Of a stretch of 64,000 nt of DNA, positions 1,564-54,518 are shown one piece after another. Numbering within the stretch: the stretch's first letter is position 1; each line of letters begins with the position of its first letter. This DNA comes from a bacterium (GTDB lineage: Bacteria; CAIWAD01), in assembly GCA_030429345.1 (NCBI GenBank), contig JAUIFJ010000011.1, positions 70,795-134,794 of the forward strand. Direction: 5' to 3'. Position numbers and translations under genes: made by a program. A model generated the notes under the pieces. That model ran no database searches. It worked only from the letters and a program-made list of their open reading frames with translations, and had not been told where the DNA came from.

Positions 1564-1788
1564 GGGTTTCCAGTACCTGAACCGCGCCGCTGTCCGGATC
1601 GGCGCAAAGTCGGCCAGGCAAAGCCGTTTTCAGCGTTGAATTCTGCCGATACCTCGTGTATCACGCCCATCGAGGGGCCGATGGCACGAAACAGTCCGTG
1701 CTCCAGTGCCGAATGGGCGCCCGCGCGGAATGGAAACATACCGGAATCGAAAAAGACAACTGCATCCTCAGAACGAAAGGAACCGTCT

Positions 1789-3600
1789 ATGCGTAAGGCA
1801 ATCCTTCTTGGCGCCATGGTGGCTGGCCTTGCCGTGTCTGCCCACGCCGAGTACGCGATTGGCGAAACTCCGCCGGACTTCACCTGCGACACCACGTTGC
1901 CGGGCGAATTCGGTGCGGAGTGGAACCTGTATGAACACCGCGGCCAGGTCGTGCTGATCAACTTCGGGGCCACGTGGTGACCGGCTTGTAATACGGAGTT
2001 TCCGCATTTACAAACCGATTTTCGCGAAGTCTACAGTGAAGCCGAGCTGGAGATCGTCCACATTGACACCGACGGTATTTCGGCCAGTGCGCTGAACAAC
2101 CACTGGAGTCAATACAACCCGACCTTCCCCATCCTGCAGGGCTGCAACAGCATCTATGGCCCCTACGGCACGGGTTACATCCCCCACACCACCATCCTGG
2201 ACACCGAGGGCATCGTCCGCGGCAACTGGGTCGGCTACAGCAGTGGAGTCGGCGCCGAAATGGCCGCCATCATCGAGCAGTTCGCCTCCATCGACCATCC
2301 TGCCCTGGCCATCGAGATGCTCGAACTGAGTGGCGACGCCAACGGCGACGGCCGCCCGGATCCGGGTGAGACCATCGACCTGGCCCTGACCCTGGTCAAT
2401 CCCGGCATCGCCGTGGACGGCACCAGCATCAGTGCCACCTTGACCTGCAGCGATCCCGGCATCACCGTGCTGAACGACATGGTCACCTTTGCCGACTGCC
2501 CCGCGGGCGGCACCACCACGGGTGACGCCATGTTCAGCTTCAGCGTTGCCGAGGGCACCGATCCCTTCTTCGCCACCTTCTCCTTCGAGATGTCGGCGGA
2601 TTACGAAGGCGCCAGCGAGCCCTTCATTTCCATGGAAGACCAGATGGTCCGCATCGGCCGTCCCGCCACCCTGGTGGTCGACAGCGACGGTCCGGACGAC
2701 GATAACGAGACTTTCCTGACCAGCGAACTGGCCAGCCGCGGCATCGGCTATGATGTCTGGGCCACCCCCACCACCGGTGAGATCGACGGCGACGAGCTGA
2801 TGCGCTATGATCGCGTCTATTGGCTGGGCGGCACGAATCCCAACGACCTGATGGCGACGGAAGCCTTCGGCCTGGCCGCCTTCCTGGACAACGGCGGCGA
2901 GCTGATCATGAGCAGCCAGTACGCCACCGACAACAGCGAGAACAGCCAGTTCATCGAGGACTACTTCGGCGTGCAGCTGGAGCAGGACCTGGGTGTGACC
3001 ACCTTCCTGCTGGAAGGCGTCGAGGGCGATCCCTACTTCGGCAACACCAACTTCGTCATCACCGGCAGCGGCGGCGCCTCGAACAACGAGCATCCCGACC
3101 GCCTGATGGTGACCGGCGACCACGCTACCGGCTTCACCACCTGGTTGCAGGGCGGCGGCACAGGCGGTGTCTATGTCGAGACCGACGACTACAAGGCGAT
3201 TTTCATGGGCTTCCCGGTGGAGGCTGCGCGTACGCACAGCAGCTATCCCAACAGCCTGACCATGGACACCTTCCTGGACCGCGCGGAGAACTTCTTCAGC
3301 GGCAACACCAGTGTGGGCGAGCCGGCCCTGGCCAGCGAGTTCCGCATTGAAGGCGCCTGGCCGAATCCCTTCAACCCGAGCACGATGCTATCCTTCACCC
3401 TGCCCCAGGCTTCGAATGTGAACTTCACGGTTTACAATACCCTGGGCCGCAAGGTGGCGAACATCGAAGGCGGCGCCCTGCCCGCCGGCACCCATGAGGT
3501 GACGGTTGACGGCAGCGCCCTCGCCAGCGGCCTCTACTTCATCCAGATGAGCGCCGACGAGCAGGTCCGCGACCTGATCAAGGTGAGTCTGGTCAAGTAG
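1789..3600 (+). CDS. Probable selenoprotein: thioredoxin-fold, T9SS-exported, Sec at codon 64 (TGA 1978-1980)
   Basis: The frame starts at ATG 1789 with a signal peptide (about residues 1-20) and reads into a TlpA/AhpC-like thioredoxin domain. At the redox motif it reads FGATW-TGA-PAC, so TGA occupies the first position of a W-C-x-x-C motif. The same frame continues without interruption through the rest of the thioredoxin fold (residues about 65-160), a long beta-rich middle and a T9SS type A sorting domain (PNPFNPST at 525-532, ending near residue 603). Reading TGA as selenocysteine gives a 603-residue protein with U64-P-A-C67. An ordinary caller would split it into a 63-residue fragment and a 446-residue ORF from 2260. 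A thiol/selenol oxidoreductase role at the cell surface or outside follows from the motif and sorting domain and is inferred. No selA, selB, selC or selD lies in the window. Confidence 0.85.
1982..2017 (+). promoter_or_regulatory. SECIS-like hairpin directly after the Sec TGA
   Basis: The bases after TGA 1978-1980 fold into a stem: CGG 1982-1984 with CCG 2015-2017, TTGTAA 1986-1991 with TTACAA 2008-2013, and an upper CGG/CCG stem (1994-1996 with 2002-2004) closed by an AGTTT loop at 1997-2001. The apical loop G is about 17 nt after the TGA, in the usual range for bacterial SECIS elements. The stem uses TTA, TTT, CAT, AAT and CAA codons that are rare in this GC-rich gene, which suggests selection on the RNA. 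Folding was done by eye only. Confidence 0.7.
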
Positions 3601-3623
3601 ACCGATTCCCGGATGTATCCGGA

Positions 3624-3655
3624 GCCCCGCGATCGCTTGGATCGCGGGGCTTTTT
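3624..3655 (+). terminator. Rho-independent terminator after the selenoprotein gene
   Basis: A perfect 11-bp GC-rich stem, GCCCCGCGATC with GATCGCGGGGC (3624-3634 and 3640-3650), has a 5-nt loop and is followed immediately by TTTTT. It lies 24 nt after the stop codon at 3600. Confidence 0.93.
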
Positions 3656-46664: not shown

Positions 46665-47583
46665 GCCCCTTGAGCACTTCCCAGACGACCTCTCCGACGA
46701 TGCCGAGGCTTTCGGCGCTGCACTGGTCGGGTGTGTCACGGTTCGTGTGCCAGGCGGGATAGTCGAAATCGATGATGTTGATCACCGGAATGCCGACCTC
46801 GATCAGCGGCACGTGGTCGTCGAGGATCTGCTGGCCGATCTCGTCGACGAAGATGTGCTCGTAGCCCAGGGCTTTCGCCGTGCCCCAGACCTGCCCGACC
46901 AGCGGGCGATTGGCGATCAGGCTGTTGACCTCCACCGGAATGCGCAGGTCGCGATCCCCGATCATGTCCAGGTTCATGCCCAGGGAGGGGCGGGGGTCGG
47001 GAATGTTCTGCGCGAAATAGCGTGATCCGATCAGGTATTGGTGGGAATCGCCTTCCTCGCCCCAGTCCTCGCCGTCATAGAGCACAATGTCCACGCCGAC
47101 GGCCACGGGCTGCTCCTTCAGCAGGCGGGCCAGTTCCAGCAGCACCACGACTCCGCTGGCGGCGTCGTTGGCGCCGACGAGCGGAACGGCGGCCTTGTCC
47201 GGATCCGTTTCCCGGTCCGAGAAGGGGCGGCTTTCCCAGTGCGCGCTGAGCAGGATGCGCCGTGATTCAAAGGGATTGAAACGGCAGAGGATGTTCGACA
47301 ATTCCAGGTAGGGCTTGTCCCTGTCGTACATCGGGTGCTTCTCTTCCACCGGGTGCTGGAAGTTCTGCAGGAAGGTCACATCGCCCAGGTCTTCCAGGCG
47401 CTCCACGATCCAGTCCCTGGCCACCGTGTGACCAGGCGCTCCGGGATAGCGGGGCCCGATGTCGCAGAAGGCGATCAGGTCCTCCATGGCCTTCTCGCCC
47501 GAGAATTCGGAAGCGAGGCCAGTGCCGGTCGCGGCCAGCAGGCAAGAGGTCGTCAGGCCCAGGAACAGGCTTCGCATGCTCAT
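46657..47583 (-). CDS. Exported M28-family zinc peptidase / glutaminyl cyclase-like
   Basis: A 308-residue secreted enzyme with a signal peptide (residues about 4-24). Zinc-ligand regions are present in order: SAHWESRP with H115, GANDAASGV with D140, YDGEDWG with E172 after D170, MNLDMIGD, and the C-terminal PAWHTNRDTP His. Members of this group include glutaminyl-peptide cyclotransferases as well as aminopeptidases; the sequence EDWGEEGDSHQYLIGSRYFA favours the cyclotransferase-like branch slightly. It is downstream of sprA on the same strand and its start overlaps the sprA stop by 4 bp. Confidence 0.87.
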   Translation of the reverse strand: MSMRSLFLGLTTSCLLAATGTGLASEFSGEKAMEDLIAFCDIGPRYPGAPGHTVARDWIVERLEDLGDVTFLQNFQHPVEEKHPMYDRDKPYLELSNILCRFNPFESRRILLSAHWESRPFSDRETDPDKAAVPLVGANDAASGVVVLLELARLLKEQPVAVGVDIVLYDGEDWGEEGDSHQYLIGSRYFAQNIPDPRPSLGMNLDMIGDRDLRIPVEVNSLIANRPLVGQVWGTAKALGYEHIFVDEIGQQILDDHVPLIEVGIPVINIIDFDYPAWHTNRDTPDQCSAESLGIVGEVVWEVLKGLN

Positions 47584-50500
47584 CGGTTTCCTCCCGAGCC
47601 GCCGCGGCGGCCGCGGCTGTTGCGGATCTGGATCGTGCAGTTCACGCCGAACTCGGTGTAGGAGGTCTTGTTGCTGATGGTGCCCGTCTCGCTGGAACCG
47701 AATTCGTAGAAGGCGCCGCCGCTCACATTGGTGCTGAACTGGAAGTCGGCGCTTCCGCGCAGCGTCCAGCTGCGGTCCTCCTGCGGCGTGTTCCAGACCA
47801 GTTCCTCCAGCGCCTCCTCGCCGTTCTCCTGCGGCGTTCTGCGAGTGGTACTGTTGATCGAGGTGTCCAGGTTCCGCGTGTACTCCAGCCTCAGGGTGGT
47901 CTGGTTGCGGAAGGGGGTCTTCATGAAAGGCAGCTTGAAGCCCTTCTCCAGCCGCCGGTTTCCGGAGATCGAGAGGCTGTTGCGGCTGGTGTAGCTCAGG
48001 CTGCGGCTGTCCGAGTCCGGGTCGTTGACGCGGATCGAGCGGTTGGCGTTGTAGTTCAGGCTGCCGCTCCAGCCCTTGCCGGTGTTGAAGTCCAGGCCGA
48101 CCAGCGGACTGAAGGAGCGGCTGAAGTTCAGCTGGCTGCGGAACAGGCCGCCGCTCGTGCTCGCGCTGTAGGAGGTCTGCAGGCGCCCGGTGTAGTTGTG
48201 ATTCATGTTCACGCTGTTGAAGGCGCTCTTCAAGAGCGGCAGCTTTTCCAGGCCGCCAATGGAGAAACTGTAGTTGGGAATGGCCCGCAGGGCGGGGTTC
48301 CCGCCGATCACGTCGCCGTCTCCCAGCGTCCCCTTGCCCAGCAGTTCCTCGTTGTCGAAGTCGTACCAGCCGTTCTCGCTTTCCGAGCGGATGGTCTCCC
48401 GCTCGTCGGTGAAGCTCTGGCTGAACTCGTACTCGTAGCTCAGGTCCAGCGGAATGCGGGGGATCACCTTGAGCTGCGTGTTCAGGCGGTAGTCGTAGCC
48501 GAAGGTGCGCTGCGACTGGACCGTGTAGTTGCCTACATTGATCGTGTCGATTCCCGTATCACGGCTGAGGCCCAGCTGGTAGGCCAGGCTGGCGTGGCGA
48601 TCCGTCCAGTCGCTCGTCCAGGGATAGACCGCCTGGCCCGGATTGGTGAAGCTGTTGTTGCGGTTGAAGTTGATGCTCAGGTCGTCGAGAACCTCCGTCA
48701 ACAGGGCCAGTCGGTGATACACGGCGCGCGTGCCGCGTGCCAGGATCCCCGGGCCCTTGTCCTCTTCCGGCTCTTCCTGGATCACGGGTCCGGCGCTTTC
48801 CCGCGCCTCGACGGAATCCGGCAAGGCGGCGGCAGGCAGGCTCTCTTCCGTGTCCAGGCTGTCGCTGCCGCTTTCCCCCATGCGGGAGAAGACGGGTTCC
48901 TGGCCCTCGTCCCTGCCGGCCATGTCTTCCCGGCTCGCCTCGAGGGGCGGCGGCGGCGGCGGAAGCAGGTCGTTCCCGTCCACGGTGCCGTCCTCGCCGT
49001 TCTTGCGCGCCTCTTTCTCCTGGCGCTTGCGCTCCTTTTCCGCCTTCCGCTCCTCGCGGCGTTCCTGGCGCTCGGCCTTCTTGCGCTGGCGCTCCTCGGC
49101 CCGCTCGGCCTTCCGCTCCTGGTGCGTGTTCTTGATTTCACGCATCTCCTCGGTATCGAGGAAGAGCATGGTCTGCAGGACCTGCGGCGTCTGCAGGCGG
49201 AAGCGCGTGCTGAAGTCGCCGCGGCTGGCCACATCCACGCCGCGGGCAGGCTCGATCAGTGTGCGCCGCCAGGTATAGCTGCTCGAGTAGCTGAAGCTCG
49301 TGCTGAGCCAGTCCAGCAGGTCCGGGTCGAAACTGGCGCTGAAGGGCTGGCTGATGTTGTGATCCCCCTCGAAGAAGCCGGCGCTGCCCTCCAGCCAGCG
49401 CTCGTAGCCCTCGTAGAAGGCGTCGTCCGATTCGCGGGTCGGGTCGTCTTCCGGAACGGTCGTGAGACGCCGGTCGAAAAGCAGGTTGTTCTGGTACTGG
49501 CGGCTGATGTTGAAGCCCAGGTTGCTGAAGAGCTGCCAGCCGGTCGAGGCGTTGCGGTCCAGCGTATACTGCTCGGTGTGGAGGAAGGTGCCGTCCCGGT
49601 CCAGCTTGTCGCGCAGCGTGCGGCGGGCCGAGGCGGTCAGGTTCAGGTTGGTGGGGAAGTAGTTCAGCTCCACTTCGCCCAGTCCGCCGATCAGCGGCCA
49701 GTCGGGCACGAAGACCAGCGGCTGCAGGCGGTGCTTCCAGTTGAAGTTGCCGCTGTTGAAGCCGACGTTGAAGTTCTGTGTCACGGTCGTGTCGCCGGCG
49801 ACCAGCTTGTTGCGGCTGACGGTCTCGGCAATGTCGTAGCTCAGGGAGACCTTATCGACGAGCACGCGGCCGACCAGCGACTCGGACTCGTTCTTGTCGA
49901 AGCCGATGCGCGCGTTGCGGCGGCGTGAGACATCCTCGACCCATTCCGGATGGTCGTCGGGATCCACCTCGTCGTCGTCGTTGGGGAAGTACTTGGGCAG
50001 CTTGAAGTCGTGCGACCAGCTGCCGGATACGGCGATGCTCGTGTTCCACGAAGGGGGCAGGAAGCGCCCCAGGTCCGTGTTGCCGTTGAAACTGCGCTTG
50101 CGCTGGAAGGTCTGGTTCGTGCCCGAGCTGCGCTGTTTCACATTGTGGAACTCGGCATCCTGCTGCTCGAAGTTGACATCCATGCGCAGGAAGTCGCTGA
50201 ACTTGGCGTCGACCTCCGCTCGCACGGCGGTGGCGTTCTCCTTCTTGACATCGGAAACGCGCAGCTCATTGAACCAGACTTCGGTCGTCGCGGGACGCGC
50301 GTCGTGGTTCTTGACGCCGAAGAGCAGCGTGCGCACCTGGTTGATCGAGGGACTGCCGACCACGCGGACCTGCCCCCCGTCGCTCAGGAGGATCGGCTTG
50401 TCCGGCTCCTCCTGCTGCTTGCGCGCCTCGCTGAAGGTTTCCAGTCCGGTGATCTCCCGCAGGATGATGTCCACGGAGTTGCTCTCCGCCCAGCCTTCCT

Positions 50501-53500
50501 CGATGAACTTGCTGTACTCGTAGTAGTTGCCCTCGCTGGACTGGATGCGGAAGATGAATTCCAGCTTGTCCTCGCCGACGAAATCGACCACGCCGGGCAG
50601 CTCGCCGCTTTCCGCCGTTCTCGTGAAGGAGCCGCCGTGCAGGAACATGCGCAGCTTGCGGTACTCGGTGAAGCTGGCGGCGGTGGCGAACTGCTTGCGC
50701 GCCCAGGCCGTCTGGCCGAAGGGCATGTCCTCGAGTTGCATCACGAGGCTCTGCTCGCGGCTGACCTGGTTGGTCAGGAAGTCCAGCTGGCCCTGCACGC
50801 CCGGCGGGCCGTAGTAGTCCTGCCGGTTGTCGAAGTTGTTGAGCACGGTCAGCTCGTAGTGGCTTGTATCACTGTCGGCGATCTGGATCTCGCGCCATTC
50901 GTTGCCGACCACGTTGAACTCGACCAGGTCCATCGTCAGCGGCTCGACATTGCCGGTGAACCACAGGCGCACGCCGTTGACCAGGGTCAGGCTGGGCGCG
51001 CCGACGCGCTCGGCCTCGTCCGGGTCCAGGGGAATGCGCACGTAATACCAGTCGTTGTCCAGCGGCGAGGCGTAGACCGGGAATTCCGGGTGGTTCGGAT
51101 TGAGCGGGATCGAGTAGGTGTAGTACGCGTCTTCCTGGTCCAGGCTCTTGTTGCCGTTGCGGTCCTCCGTGTCCGGGTAGTTCTGCTCGGCGTTCAGCCG
51201 GTTGCCTTCCCAGCCGTGTCCCCTGTCGAATCCGTCGACAGCGGGGTCGTTGTCCGGCAACACGGTCAGTTCGGTCGGGCTGCGCACCCAGTTGTCGTAG
51301 GACCAGGGCTCGGCGGGTTCCTTGACGCCGTTGAAATTGATGTCCCAGAAGTCGTAGGGCAGTTCCGTGCTCAGACCCGTCGCGCCGAAGAGCTCGTCCG
51401 GCATCGGCCAGGGCGGGTCCTCGCCGATGGCCCCGTCCAGGCCCACGTCCTCGCTGGTCGCCAGCAGATTGTCGTTGTTGATGTCCTCGGTGTCGAGGGT
51501 GCCGTTGGGGATCACATCCTCGCTGACGCGCCCCAGGTCGATGTGCATCGTGCCGCTGCGGTCGCCGTAGGCGCGGAAAGTCAGTTCCAGGTATTTCTTG
51601 TCGCTCAGGTCGTCGTAGGCGCCGCGGAAGTCGTAGTAGATGCCGCCCCAGCCGTCTCGCCGCTCGATGGGCGTGCCGTTGGGGCCGATCTCCGTGTCCG
51701 TGCCGACCTGGCTCTCCAGGGTGAAGGGGTAGTAGTGGATGCGGAAGACGCGCAGGTTGTTTTCCGCGGTCTGGTTGTCGCCCTGTTGGAACTGCTTCCA
51801 GATGTCGCGCGCCTCCACGCGGTCCCGCGGATTCCACCAGCCGATCTGTCCGCGGTAGCCCAGAATGCCGTTGGCCGGCCGGGAGCTGATGAACCACTGG
51901 TTGTGACTCAGGCCCATGGGGATTTCCTGCTTCGAGCTCTCGAAGTCGTCCACGTAGGCCACGCCGTTGTTGTCCCCCGTGTTGCCGTTGTTGCTCGGAT
52001 TGGGATCCGGCAGCACCATGGCGAACTCGGCTTCCAGGTTGAGCTCCGACTCGGCATCGGCCTCCACCAGGGGCAGGGCGTCTACAAGGGAGGTCATCAG
52101 CCGCGGCTTGAAGCCGATCTTCCCGTTTACATCGAAGATCAGGTTCTTGATCGGCTCGTTGCCCAGGCGGATCTTCCGCTCGCTGCTCTCCTCGTTGAAG
52201 TAGATCATGCTCGCGCCCAGGAAGTTGTTCTGTCCCAGGTCGTACTTGGCGCTCAGGCCGGCATAGGTCTTCTTGCGCAGCTGGAAGAGCTGCGGCGTCT
52301 CGTAGGTGACCTCGATCTCCTGGTTGGGCGCCGTATACTGTGCGTTCGTGATGCGCACGATGCCGGCGAACTCGTCCAGTTCGTAGTCCGTGCCCTCGGT
52401 GAGACGGCGCCCGTTGGCCGTCACGCTGACATTGGTCACATTCCAGCCCAGGCTGATCACTTCCGTGCCCACCTGTGCCGTGCTCTCCAGCGTATACTTC
52501 GAGATCAGGTCCAGGTAGTCGATGGCCGTCTCGCGGATCGAGTAGAGCGTGTCGATCTCCGCCGCGTCCTCAAAGGGCGTATAGCGCGAATCGGTGGTGG
52601 AATTGACCACGTTCGGCAGCACGGTCCGTCCCGAGGGATTGTCACTCAGCGCCACGTTCCAGGTCGTGTCCGCGCCGAAGGGCTCGACGACGGGAAACCA
52701 CAGCTCGCCCTTTTCCGTGTCCAGCCAGTCCAGGTCGACCTTGCCGTCCTTTCCGGGAATGCCGGTGGCGTTGTTCTTCGTGTCCAGGTAGAACAGCGAG
52801 AGGTAGCTGTCGCTGCCCTGGCTGGGATTGCCCGTGCTGCCGCTTCGCGTCTGCAGGATGCGCATGCTGAAGTCGCCGTCCTCCGCGTTCTGCGCGTTCA
52901 TGCGGTAGACGTTCTTCAGCTGCAGCTCCCAGTAGGGATCCGTGTCCGGACTCATGTTCTGCGGCACGAGGACGACCACCTCGTCGCCGTTGGCGGCCGT
53001 GTTGCCGTTGTTCCCCGTGAGCACGCCCTGGTTGAAGGGGCCGTGTGTCAGCCCGCTCTGGGCGAGGGTGATCTGCCCGTCGAAGAGGCCTGGTGTGGAG
53101 GTCGAGTAGGCCATGGCGACGAACTCGTTGCGGCTGGGGCGGAAGTTGAGCCTCACGATGCCGCGGTAGGGATCGATCTCGAAGTCCAGGTCCTCCGTCG
53201 TGCCCGGCGTCCAGGTCTGGGGGATCATCAGGTAGCCGCCCTCGAAGGGGCTGGGCCCGCCCGGTTCGGGGTGGGCCAGCTGCAGCTCCTTGCGCTCGGC
53301 GTCGTCGGCGGCCGAAAAGCGGAAGAGCGTGAAGCGCGTGATGCGCGCATCCTCGATGTAGTTGTGATCCATCGTCCCGGAGGTATACATGCGGTAGCGG
53401 TCGCGGTAGAAGGAATTGATGAAGAAGATGTTCTTCACCCAGTCGCCCAGGTTGCGCTCGGTCAGGCTTTCGCTGCTGCCGTCGCCACGGGCCTTCTGGC

Positions 53501-54518
53501 TCTTCGACTCGTTGCGCTCGCTGGAGGCGACGCCGGTCAGCTCCAGGGGGCCGAAGCGGGTGACGGCCTTCAGGCCGAAGAGGCCGCTGGAGCGCTCGCT
53601 GAAATTGACAAAGCGCGTCGAGGGCAGGCTGAGCGAGATGTTGCCCACCTGCAGGCTCTGGATCACCTCTTCCGGCTCGCCGGTGTAGGTGATCGAGAGA
53701 CTGTTCTCGAAATCGAAGGTGCGTTCCGTGTCCTGGTCGATGTGCACATCCACCTTCTCGCCGATCTTGCCGACCACGGTGAACTGCTGGCTCTGTTCCA
53801 GGTTGAAGTTGCTGTTGTTGTTGGCGAACTGGCTGGCGCTTTCCGATTCGCGCTTCTCGCGACGGAAGGCGCCGCGAATGCCGATCTGGCCGGTGACATT
53901 CATGCCGATGCGGCCGCTGCCGAAAATGCGCTGGAAGGTCTGGCTGCGGATCTTGAAGGGAATGTCGATCTGGATATGCTCGCCCGTGGAGCTGCCTCCG
54001 CCGAGGCTCTCTTCCTGGATGTCCTTGCGCAGCAAGGAGTGGTTGCGGTCCCGCCGTTGGCTTTCGCGCAGCTGCTCGAAGCTCAGGAAGCGGGTTTCCA
54101 GCAACTGGCCGCTGTAGTCGTAGCGGCGCTGCACCACGCCCGTCGCCAGGGTGTCCAGGACGATGCGCCCTGGCGCCAGGCCGAGCAGGTTGTTCAGGGA
54201 TGCATCCGGGGCCGTGCCCAGCCAATCCGTGGAAGCGCCGCTTCGAAAGCCGGTTTGCAGGGAGCGGTCCTCTTCCTGCGCCGTCAGCCGGGCACAGAAC
54301 AGCCCGACCAGCAGAAGTGCCAGTCCGAGCGCATGCCATCCTCGAGTGGGAATCCCTTGCCTCTTCAGTGGTGAGATGTGGGGTGTCCTTTGGAAGTCCT
54401 TGAGCGGGAAAGCCCTGCTTTCCTGCGCCGCCGCGAGAAAATCCTTAGCAGTAGATCCGGATGGTCCTCCTTTCGGACACGAGACAAGGCAGAACGGTCT
54501 GCCGGCGAAGTCGCCCAT
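47580..54518 (-). CDS. sprA: SprA/Sov, T9SS outer-membrane translocon
   Basis: A giant protein of up to 2312 residues, matching the SprA/Sov translocon of the type IX secretion system, which forms a very large 36-stranded outer-membrane barrel. A signal peptide is visible (LGLALLLVGLFCARLTAQ, roughly residues 64-81 of the longest form). Repeated amphipathic strands continue to an aromatic C-terminus region. Residues about 1790-1920 carry an unusual, very charged Arg/Lys/Glu-rich segment with a proline run (PPPPPP), unlike the rest. The true start is unclear: the ORF's GTG/ATG at 54518 has no ribosome-binding site, and the signal peptide begins some 55-60 codons later with no ATG, GTG or TTG before it. 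The window's selenoprotein carries the matching sorting signal. Confidence 0.93.
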   Translation of the reverse strand: MGDFAGRPFCLVSCPKGGPSGSTAKDFLAAAQESRAFPLKDFQRTPHISPLKRQGIPTRGWHALGLALLLVGLFCARLTAQEEDRSLQTGFRSGASTDWLGTAPDASLNNLLGLAPGRIVLDTLATGVVQRRYDYSGQLLETRFLSFEQLRESQRRDRNHSLLRKDIQEESLGGGSSTGEHIQIDIPFKIRSQTFQRIFGSGRIGMNVTGQIGIRGAFRREKRESESASQFANNNSNFNLEQSQQFTVVGKIGEKVDVHIDQDTERTFDFENSLSITYTGEPEEVIQSLQVGNISLSLPSTRFVNFSERSSGLFGLKAVTRFGPLELTGVASSERNESKSQKARGDGSSESLTERNLGDWVKNIFFINSFYRDRYRMYTSGTMDHNYIEDARITRFTLFRFSAADDAERKELQLAHPEPGGPSPFEGGYLMIPQTWTPGTTEDLDFEIDPYRGIVRLNFRPSRNEFVAMAYSTSTPGLFDGQITLAQSGLTHGPFNQGVLTGNNGNTAANGDEVVVLVPQNMSPDTDPYWELQLKNVYRMNAQNAEDGDFSMRILQTRSGSTGNPSQGSDSYLSLFYLDTKNNATGIPGKDGKVDLDWLDTEKGELWFPVVEPFGADTTWNVALSDNPSGRTVLPNVVNSTTDSRYTPFEDAAEIDTLYSIRETAIDYLDLISKYTLESTAQVGTEVISLGWNVTNVSVTANGRRLTEGTDYELDEFAGIVRITNAQYTAPNQEIEVTYETPQLFQLRKKTYAGLSAKYDLGQNNFLGASMIYFNEESSERKIRLGNEPIKNLIFDVNGKIGFKPRLMTSLVDALPLVEADAESELNLEAEFAMVLPDPNPSNNGNTGDNNGVAYVDDFESSKQEIPMGLSHNQWFISSRPANGILGYRGQIGWWNPRDRVEARDIWKQFQQGDNQTAENNLRVFRIHYYPFTLESQVGTDTEIGPNGTPIERRDGWGGIYYDFRGAYDDLSDKKYLELTFRAYGDRSGTMHIDLGRVSEDVIPNGTLDTEDINNDNLLATSEDVGLDGAIGEDPPWPMPDELFGATGLSTELPYDFWDINFNGVKEPAEPWSYDNWVRSPTELTVLPDNDPAVDGFDRGHGWEGNRLNAEQNYPDTEDRNGNKSLDQEDAYYTYSIPLNPNHPEFPVYASPLDNDWYYVRIPLDPDEAERVGAPSLTLVNGVRLWFTGNVEPLTMDLVEFNVVGNEWREIQIADSDTSHYELTVLNNFDNRQDYYGPPGVQGQLDFLTNQVSREQSLVMQLEDMPFGQTAWARKQFATAASFTEYRKLRMFLHGGSFTRTAESGELPGVVDFVGEDKLEFIFRIQSSEGNYYEYSKFIEEGWAESNSVDIILREITGLETFSEARKQQEEPDKPILLSDGGQVRVVGSPSINQVRTLLFGVKNHDARPATTEVWFNELRVSDVKKENATAVRAEVDAKFSDFLRMDVNFEQQDAEFHNVKQRSSGTNQTFQRKRSFNGNTDLGRFLPPSWNTSIAVSGSWSHDFKLPKYFPNDDDEVDPDDHPEWVEDVSRRRNARIGFDKNESESLVGRVLVDKVSLSYDIAETVSRNKLVAGDTTVTQNFNVGFNSGNFNWKHRLQPLVFVPDWPLIGGLGEVELNYFPTNLNLTASARRTLRDKLDRDGTFLHTEQYTLDRNASTGWQLFSNLGFNISRQYQNNLLFDRRLTTVPEDDPTRESDDAFYEGYERWLEGSAGFFEGDHNISQPFSASFDPDLLDWLSTSFSYSSSYTWRRTLIEPARGVDVASRGDFSTRFRLQTPQVLQTMLFLDTEEMREIKNTHQERKAERAEERQRKKAERQERREERKAEKERKRQEKEARKNGEDGTVDGNDLLPPPPPPLEASREDMAGRDEGQEPVFSRMGESGSDSLDTEESLPAAALPDSVEARESAGPVIQEEPEEDKGPGILARGTRAVYHRLALLTEVLDDLSINFNRNNSFTNPGQAVYPWTSDWTDRHASLAYQLGLSRDTGIDTINVGNYTVQSQRTFGYDYRLNTQLKVIPRIPLDLSYEYEFSQSFTDERETIRSESENGWYDFDNEELLGKGTLGDGDVIGGNPALRAIPNYSFSIGGLEKLPLLKSAFNSVNMNHNYTGRLQTSYSASTSGGLFRSQLNFSRSFSPLVGLDFNTGKGWSGSLNYNANRSIRVNDPDSDSRSLSYTSRNSLSISGNRRLEKGFKLPFMKTPFRNQTTLRLEYTRNLDTSINSTTRRTPQENGEEALEELVWNTPQEDRSWTLRGSADFQFSTNVSGGAFYEFGSSETGTISNKTSYTEFGVNCTIQIRNSRGRRGGSGGNR

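Follow-up and report, generated by a model that had tools for sequence, protein, structure and literature searches.

A candidate selenoprotein of the thioredoxin fold with a type IX secretion sorting domain

A frame on the forward strand of the 64-kb stretch of DNA analysed here (the window), interrupted by one TGA codon, is best explained as an intact selenoprotein gene. We estimate a probability of about 0.85 that it encodes a redoxin with selenocysteine (Sec) at residue 64, which would be exported via the type IX secretion system (T9SS) and act as a selenol/thiol-disulfide oxidoreductase at the cell surface or outside the cell. The parts of this prediction, drawn from sequence comparison, differ in strength. 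Sec insertion at residue 64 is proposed with high confidence and T9SS export of the Sec protein with moderate confidence, and it is with low confidence that we consider a reaction of the dithiol-disulfide type likelier than a peroxidase reaction. The genome that contains the window is 4.24 Mb in size and 98% complete.

In the proposed pathway, a hairpin a few bases after the UGA at 1978-1980 would recruit SelB with Sec-tRNA, and Sec would be inserted as residue 64, so that the TlpA/ResA-type thioredoxin domain would have W-U-P-A-C as its active site. The signal peptide would take the protein through the inner membrane, the type A sorting domain would lead it to the SprA translocon for subsequent cleavage or anchoring by PorU, and the redox domain would act at the cell surface or extracellularly.

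Gene structure, domains and predicted chemistry

When translated, the frame 1789-3600 (+) gave 603 residues up to a TAG stop codon, and TGA occurred in it once, at residue 64; this confirmed the otherwise open frame reported in the preliminary description. Together with the domain matches and the conservation of orthologues, the translation points to a complete selenoprotein gene with one Sec (1789..3600, +). A Shine-Dalgarno-like AAAGGAA (1776..1782, +) was read from the sequence 6 nt before the ATG, and an intrinsic terminator-like hairpin of 14 pairs (3621..3653, +) was likewise found in the sequence directly 3' of the TAG. The proposed Sec codon (1978..1980, +), at the first position of U-P-A-C, has the surroundings INFGATW-U-PACNTEFPHLQ. 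It falls at the first Cys of the W-C-P-A-C motif of a TlpA/ResA-type thioredoxin domain, and the catalytic Cys of redoxin homologues aligned with it, in agreement with the position that had been proposed for it within W-C-x-x-C.

The predicted protein begins with a putative Sec-type signal peptide (MRKAILLGAMVAGLAVSAHA; 1789..1848, +), recognized by inspection, with cleavage probably after AHA; the N-termini of homologues are also hydrophobic. Residues 25-160 (1861..2268, +) form a TlpA/ResA-type thioredoxin (redoxin) domain, in which the Pfam AhpC-TSA match (44.2 bits) spans residues 25-144 and PDB profile matches were obtained to ResA (3c71/1st9). The two flanks of the TGA thus belong to one thioredoxin fold, as the preliminary description held. 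Two further cysteines of this domain, Cys33 and Cys119 (columns 38 and 127 of an 18-sequence alignment), are both present in 8 sequences and both absent in 10, and coordinated changes at the two positions also occur inside the orthologues (L021) and inside the paralogues in which Ser replaces Sec (L029). With none of the 18 homologues having one of the two without the other, Cys33 and Cys119 probably form a structural disulfide, as expected in an oxidising compartment.

The middle of the protein was assigned from an AlphaFold2 model with a mean pLDDT of 70, which was used for the middle domains only (the active-site loop scored <50). Residues 173-290 (2305..2658, +) form an all-beta (Ig-like) linker domain, seen in the model and in its likeness to the C-terminal parts of predicted exported S8 and M6 proteases. 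Residues 294-505 (2668..3303, +) form a ThuA / glutamine-amidotransferase-like alpha-beta domain, for which Foldseek returned 4jqs and 1t0b with target TM scores of 0.56-0.57. The region between the redoxin domain and the tail resembles the C-terminal parts of a subtilase (S8) and an M6 peptidase encoded in the same genome, whose own tails match just below the Pfam cut-off. Our guess is that the Ig-like and ThuA-like domains, which the phylum's predicted exported proteases also have, are a surface or substrate-binding module.

Judged from fold and motif, Sec64 would attack the substrate and Cys67 would resolve the intermediate. The combination of U-x-x-C with a TlpA/ResA cis-Pro loop (GYIP), instead of the peroxiredoxin T-x-x-C, argues for action on disulfides, as do the best named relatives, ResA, StoA, TlpA and DsbE. 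These features make it rather unlikely that the exported selenoprotein is a peroxidase or reductive detoxifier of peroxides, polysulfide or metalloids that does not act on protein disulfides. That alternative nevertheless draws on the best Pfam match, which is AhpC-TSA/Redoxin, on the preference of peroxidases for Sec, and on a surface location that meets oxidants first.

Sorting domain and predicted export

The T9SS type A sorting domain that had been noticed at the end of the frame was recovered by two family models. TIGR04183 matched residues 524-594 (3358..3570, +) with 35.1 bits (cut-off 23), and Por_Secre_tail (PF18962) matched residues 524-592 with 34.2 bits (cut-off 27). The supposition that the cell has a type IX system was also borne out, as both SprA and PorU are encoded in the genome. 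The gene for the T9SS outer-membrane translocon, sprA/sov (47580..54518, -; 2312 aa), was identified by TIGR04189 (664 bits over the frame) and Pfam SprA_N (118.5 bits), and PorU is encoded outside the window and scored above the curated cut-off. The sprA/sov gene and the selenoprotein gene lie in the same 64-kb window, about 44 kb apart. The component search covered SprA and PorU, and both scored above the curated cut-offs in five of the five phylum genomes.

A type A tail above the cut-off was found in eight TGA members of the family, the window protein and seven relatives. The relative in G005, a genome outside the phylum that also has SprA, carries a stronger tail (42.9 bits). When matches to the window protein within its own genome were scored (150 in all), most were to the C-terminal tail, at query residues ~500-603, a pattern that a shared export tag would produce. 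No T9SS tail was detectable in the Sec paralogues L024, L025, L026, L030 and L072; T9SS export therefore does not characterize the family as a whole. Export seems to be common in the family, by a route that varies among the predicted proteins.

It is improbable, given these results, that Sec is inserted into a protein that stays periplasmic or associated with the outer membrane, with the C-terminal Ig-like domain serving a structural role and carrying no T9SS signal. The tail does also match FlgD_ig (28.7 bits, cut-off 27), several Sec paralogues have other C-termini, and ResA and TlpA relatives are periplasmic. Set against this are the TIGR04183 score of the tail, the dominance of tail matches within the genome, the presence of SprA and PorU, and the G005 relative with its stronger tail and SprA. 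Together they favour T9SS export of the predicted selenoprotein.

Evidence for selenocysteine at the TGA codon

A TGA at the same codon was read in 15 family members from 7 genomes: 3 in the genome of the window, 10 in the phylum's four other genomes and 2 outside the phylum. None of the five phylum genomes examined lacks a TGA member. Three other species of the family have orthologues with TGA at this codon that match the window protein at 47-48% identity from end to end, and the identity continues across ~540 residues downstream of it. TGA paralogues are also encoded in the same genome (C46:30194 and C46:32104) and in G002, G003 and G004, the last from another family. A search of 386 relatives added the two members outside the phylum, both with TGA, and the one in G005 aligned with the window protein end to end at 32% identity and shares its domain architecture. 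The comparison of homologues at this position, which the preliminary description had proposed as a check, therefore gave TGA in these 15 members, Ser in three paralogues and Cys in none. Across 84,980 genomes, a pattern scan returned no Cys-containing orthologue and only generic redoxins, mostly with WCPPC; the WCP pattern used was built with Cys, and Sec members could be found only via a second pattern.

Downstream of the TGA lies a bSECIS-like stem-loop (1986..2013, +), identified by folding and covariation, with the core CGGA-GUU-UCCG at 1994-2004. A bSECIS downstream of the UGA is a general bacterial rule (PMC13188914). The published model calls for a loop of 3-9 nt, a stem of 4-16 bp, a G in the first two loop positions, a spacing of 16-37 nt and a minimum free energy (MFE) of at most -7.5 kcal/mol (PMC13188914). 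The hairpin of the window, with its GUU loop 17 nt after the TGA, a 4-bp core in a longer stem and -9.0 kcal/mol, lies within every one of these limits. In 13 of 13 phylum members the stem has at least 4 pairs, the loop 3-6 nt with G in the first two positions, and the spacing is 16-18 nt; 10 of the 13 are also within the energy limit, and the weaker hairpins of L022, L026 and L028 fail that limit only. Rfam scans of the region gave nothing relevant, and the hairpin was therefore judged against these published rules.

The MFE of the window's own 61-nt stretch was unremarkable (z -0.91), and synonymous recoding was therefore used as the control. Only 1 of 200 recodings of the window sequence reached the bSECIS model, and none was as stable. 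For the V-type homologues 22-30% of recodings also passed, so the evidence for the hairpin rests on the window's own sequence and the H-type sequences. In the H-type subset, columns 17 and 27 carry compensatory C-G, A-U and U-A pairs with the 3' partner at the wobble position of a Pro codon; 1 of 500 shuffles reached the covariation score, which was uncorrected for relatedness and lay above every slid register. RNAalifold on nine sequences found no single consensus, because the V-type and H-type stems differ in register by one base. Among the codons that follow the TGA are TTT, TTA, CAA and a second TTT, all of them rare across seven long open reading frames or gene segments analysed in the window (TTT 4.5% of Phe, CAA 6% of Gln, TTA 0/541 Leu).

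The genome encodes the complete machinery for Sec insertion, and the selA, selB, selC and selD genes that had been named for a search were all present: tRNA-Sec with the anticodon UCA, SelA (499 bits in a profile search), SelB (307 bits; its gene lies near that for SelA, in the same orientation on one contig) and SelD (341 bits). SelD (L017, G000:C46:5003-5920) carries an in-frame TGA in the active-site region, KTCG-U-AAK, and is probably a selenoprotein as well. SelA was found in all three same-family genomes, and tRNA-Sec in two of these three and in the other-family genome. No SelA match was obtained in G004 (67% complete) and no tRNA-Sec match in G001 (91% complete). G003 has two selA copies with the same coordinates near contig ends and very similar scores (G003:C185 and G003:C37); one carries an in-frame TAG, and the pair is probably an assembly duplicate.

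TGA is a stop in table 11 and assemblies do contain single-base errors, so that the codon might be a genuine stop in a decayed pseudogene, a misread TGC or TGT, or the deliberate end of a 63-residue product; conservation of the same-codon TGA in 15 members and 7 genomes with protein conserved on both sides, the full Sec machinery, and the constrained hairpin with its rare codons leave this with next to no probability, and a pseudogene or a sequencing error is refuted in practice by the TGA conservation. Genome-wide reassignment of TGA, for instance to Trp, has nothing in its favour beyond the readthrough itself and was rejected as vanishingly improbable, since ordinary genes of the window such as rlmN and sprA end in TGA, which indicates that the code is not reassigned, the position aligns with the Cys of CxxC in redoxins, and a tRNA-Sec with anticodon UCA is present.

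Relation to known proteins and variant family members

The window protein shares with ResA, TlpA and DsbE (NF002854, TIGR00385; PDB 1st9, 3c71) the thioredoxin fold, the W-C-x-x-C site, the cis-Pro and, putatively, an N-terminal signal sequence, and differs from them in having Sec for the first Cys and additional Ig-like, ThuA-like and T9SS sorting domains. It scored well below the cut-offs of both families (62.9 vs 170 bits for NF002854; 28.8 vs 123 bits for TIGR00385). It has the ResA/TlpA fold and falls outside the ResA equivalog family.

The preliminary description had regarded U-x-x-C as an established selenoprotein motif, and selenoproteins of the redoxin/TlpA kind with this motif are indeed a known theme in PMC13188914 (Table 1) and in NCBIfam (NF041054, NF053656). 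The UxxC redoxin-fold families listed there are the Prx-like thiol:disulfide oxidoreductase (PF00578), cd02966 isomerase-like and Redoxin (PF08534) families, which share with the window protein Sec first in UxxC and a redoxin/TlpA fold. The passages of Table 1 consulted show neither a T9SS sorting domain nor a ThuA-like module for them, whereas the window protein has both, and a text search of that review gave no mention of secretion or signal peptides. None of the NCBIfam selenoprotein models reached its cut-off on the window protein. NF041054 (ResA-like WAxxUGC motif-containing protein) shares a ResA-like selenoprotein fold; the window protein scored 22.9 bits against it (cut-off 300) and has UPAC, not UGC, and the matched part has no T9SS tail. 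T9SS type A cargo (TIGR04183) shares the C-terminal sorting domain and, putatively, the signal peptide; no selenoprotein cargo was found in the literature searched, whereas the window protein contains a predicted Sec. The preliminary description had presented a selenoprotein sent through the T9SS as a combination not known to be described. In the open-access literature searched no relevant paper was found, and no family model for such a protein was found either; an earlier description elsewhere is possible. Only the combination of a U-x-x-C redoxin selenoprotein with a T9SS signal appears to be new.

Selenocysteine is an expensive residue that is prone to oxidation, and the bacterial selenoproteins described so far mostly function within the cell or the periplasm. 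We tentatively suggest, at somewhat less than even odds, that the phylum has a set of selenoproteins outside the cell, with up to several Sec redoxins per genome, many of them T9SS-tailed, which together would make up a selenol redox system at the surface, supplied by an extracellular electron source of its own. If T9SS-sent selenol enzymes do occur in all five phylum genomes examined, Sec chemistry would pay off outside the cell, and the question would arise of what reduces such an enzyme there. Such genes are split, and their active site is dropped, by gene callers that take TGA as a stop, which makes the family easy to overlook in genome databases.

Several family members depart from the common pattern. 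In three paralogues (L029, G001:C198; L031, G003:C130; L032, G002:C44) Ser replaces Sec, in GQTASQPC, and the second Cys is retained without the rare-codon hairpin. These proteins may have a different redox role or none; in G002, a Ser paralogue adjoins a Sec paralogue. Outside the phylum, L090 (G080:C3:328747-329202) is a related TGA redoxin with no T9SS tail and a weak dockerin-like C-terminal match (17.7 bits, below the Pfam cut-off of 22.9), and a search of its genome for SprA gave no match. Related lineages may thus use other C-terminal modules. The paralogue L027 (G001:C280:5142-6092) appears to lack most of its redoxin domain between NFG and PDPGE and to shift frame; the gap seems to be a deletion or an assembly fault. 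In the paralogue L075, near 1684 (G004:C95:10995-11480), the motif is W-U-P-P-W-C, that is U-x-x-x-C, and is accompanied by a strong hairpin, GUCGAG-GGC-CUCGAC.
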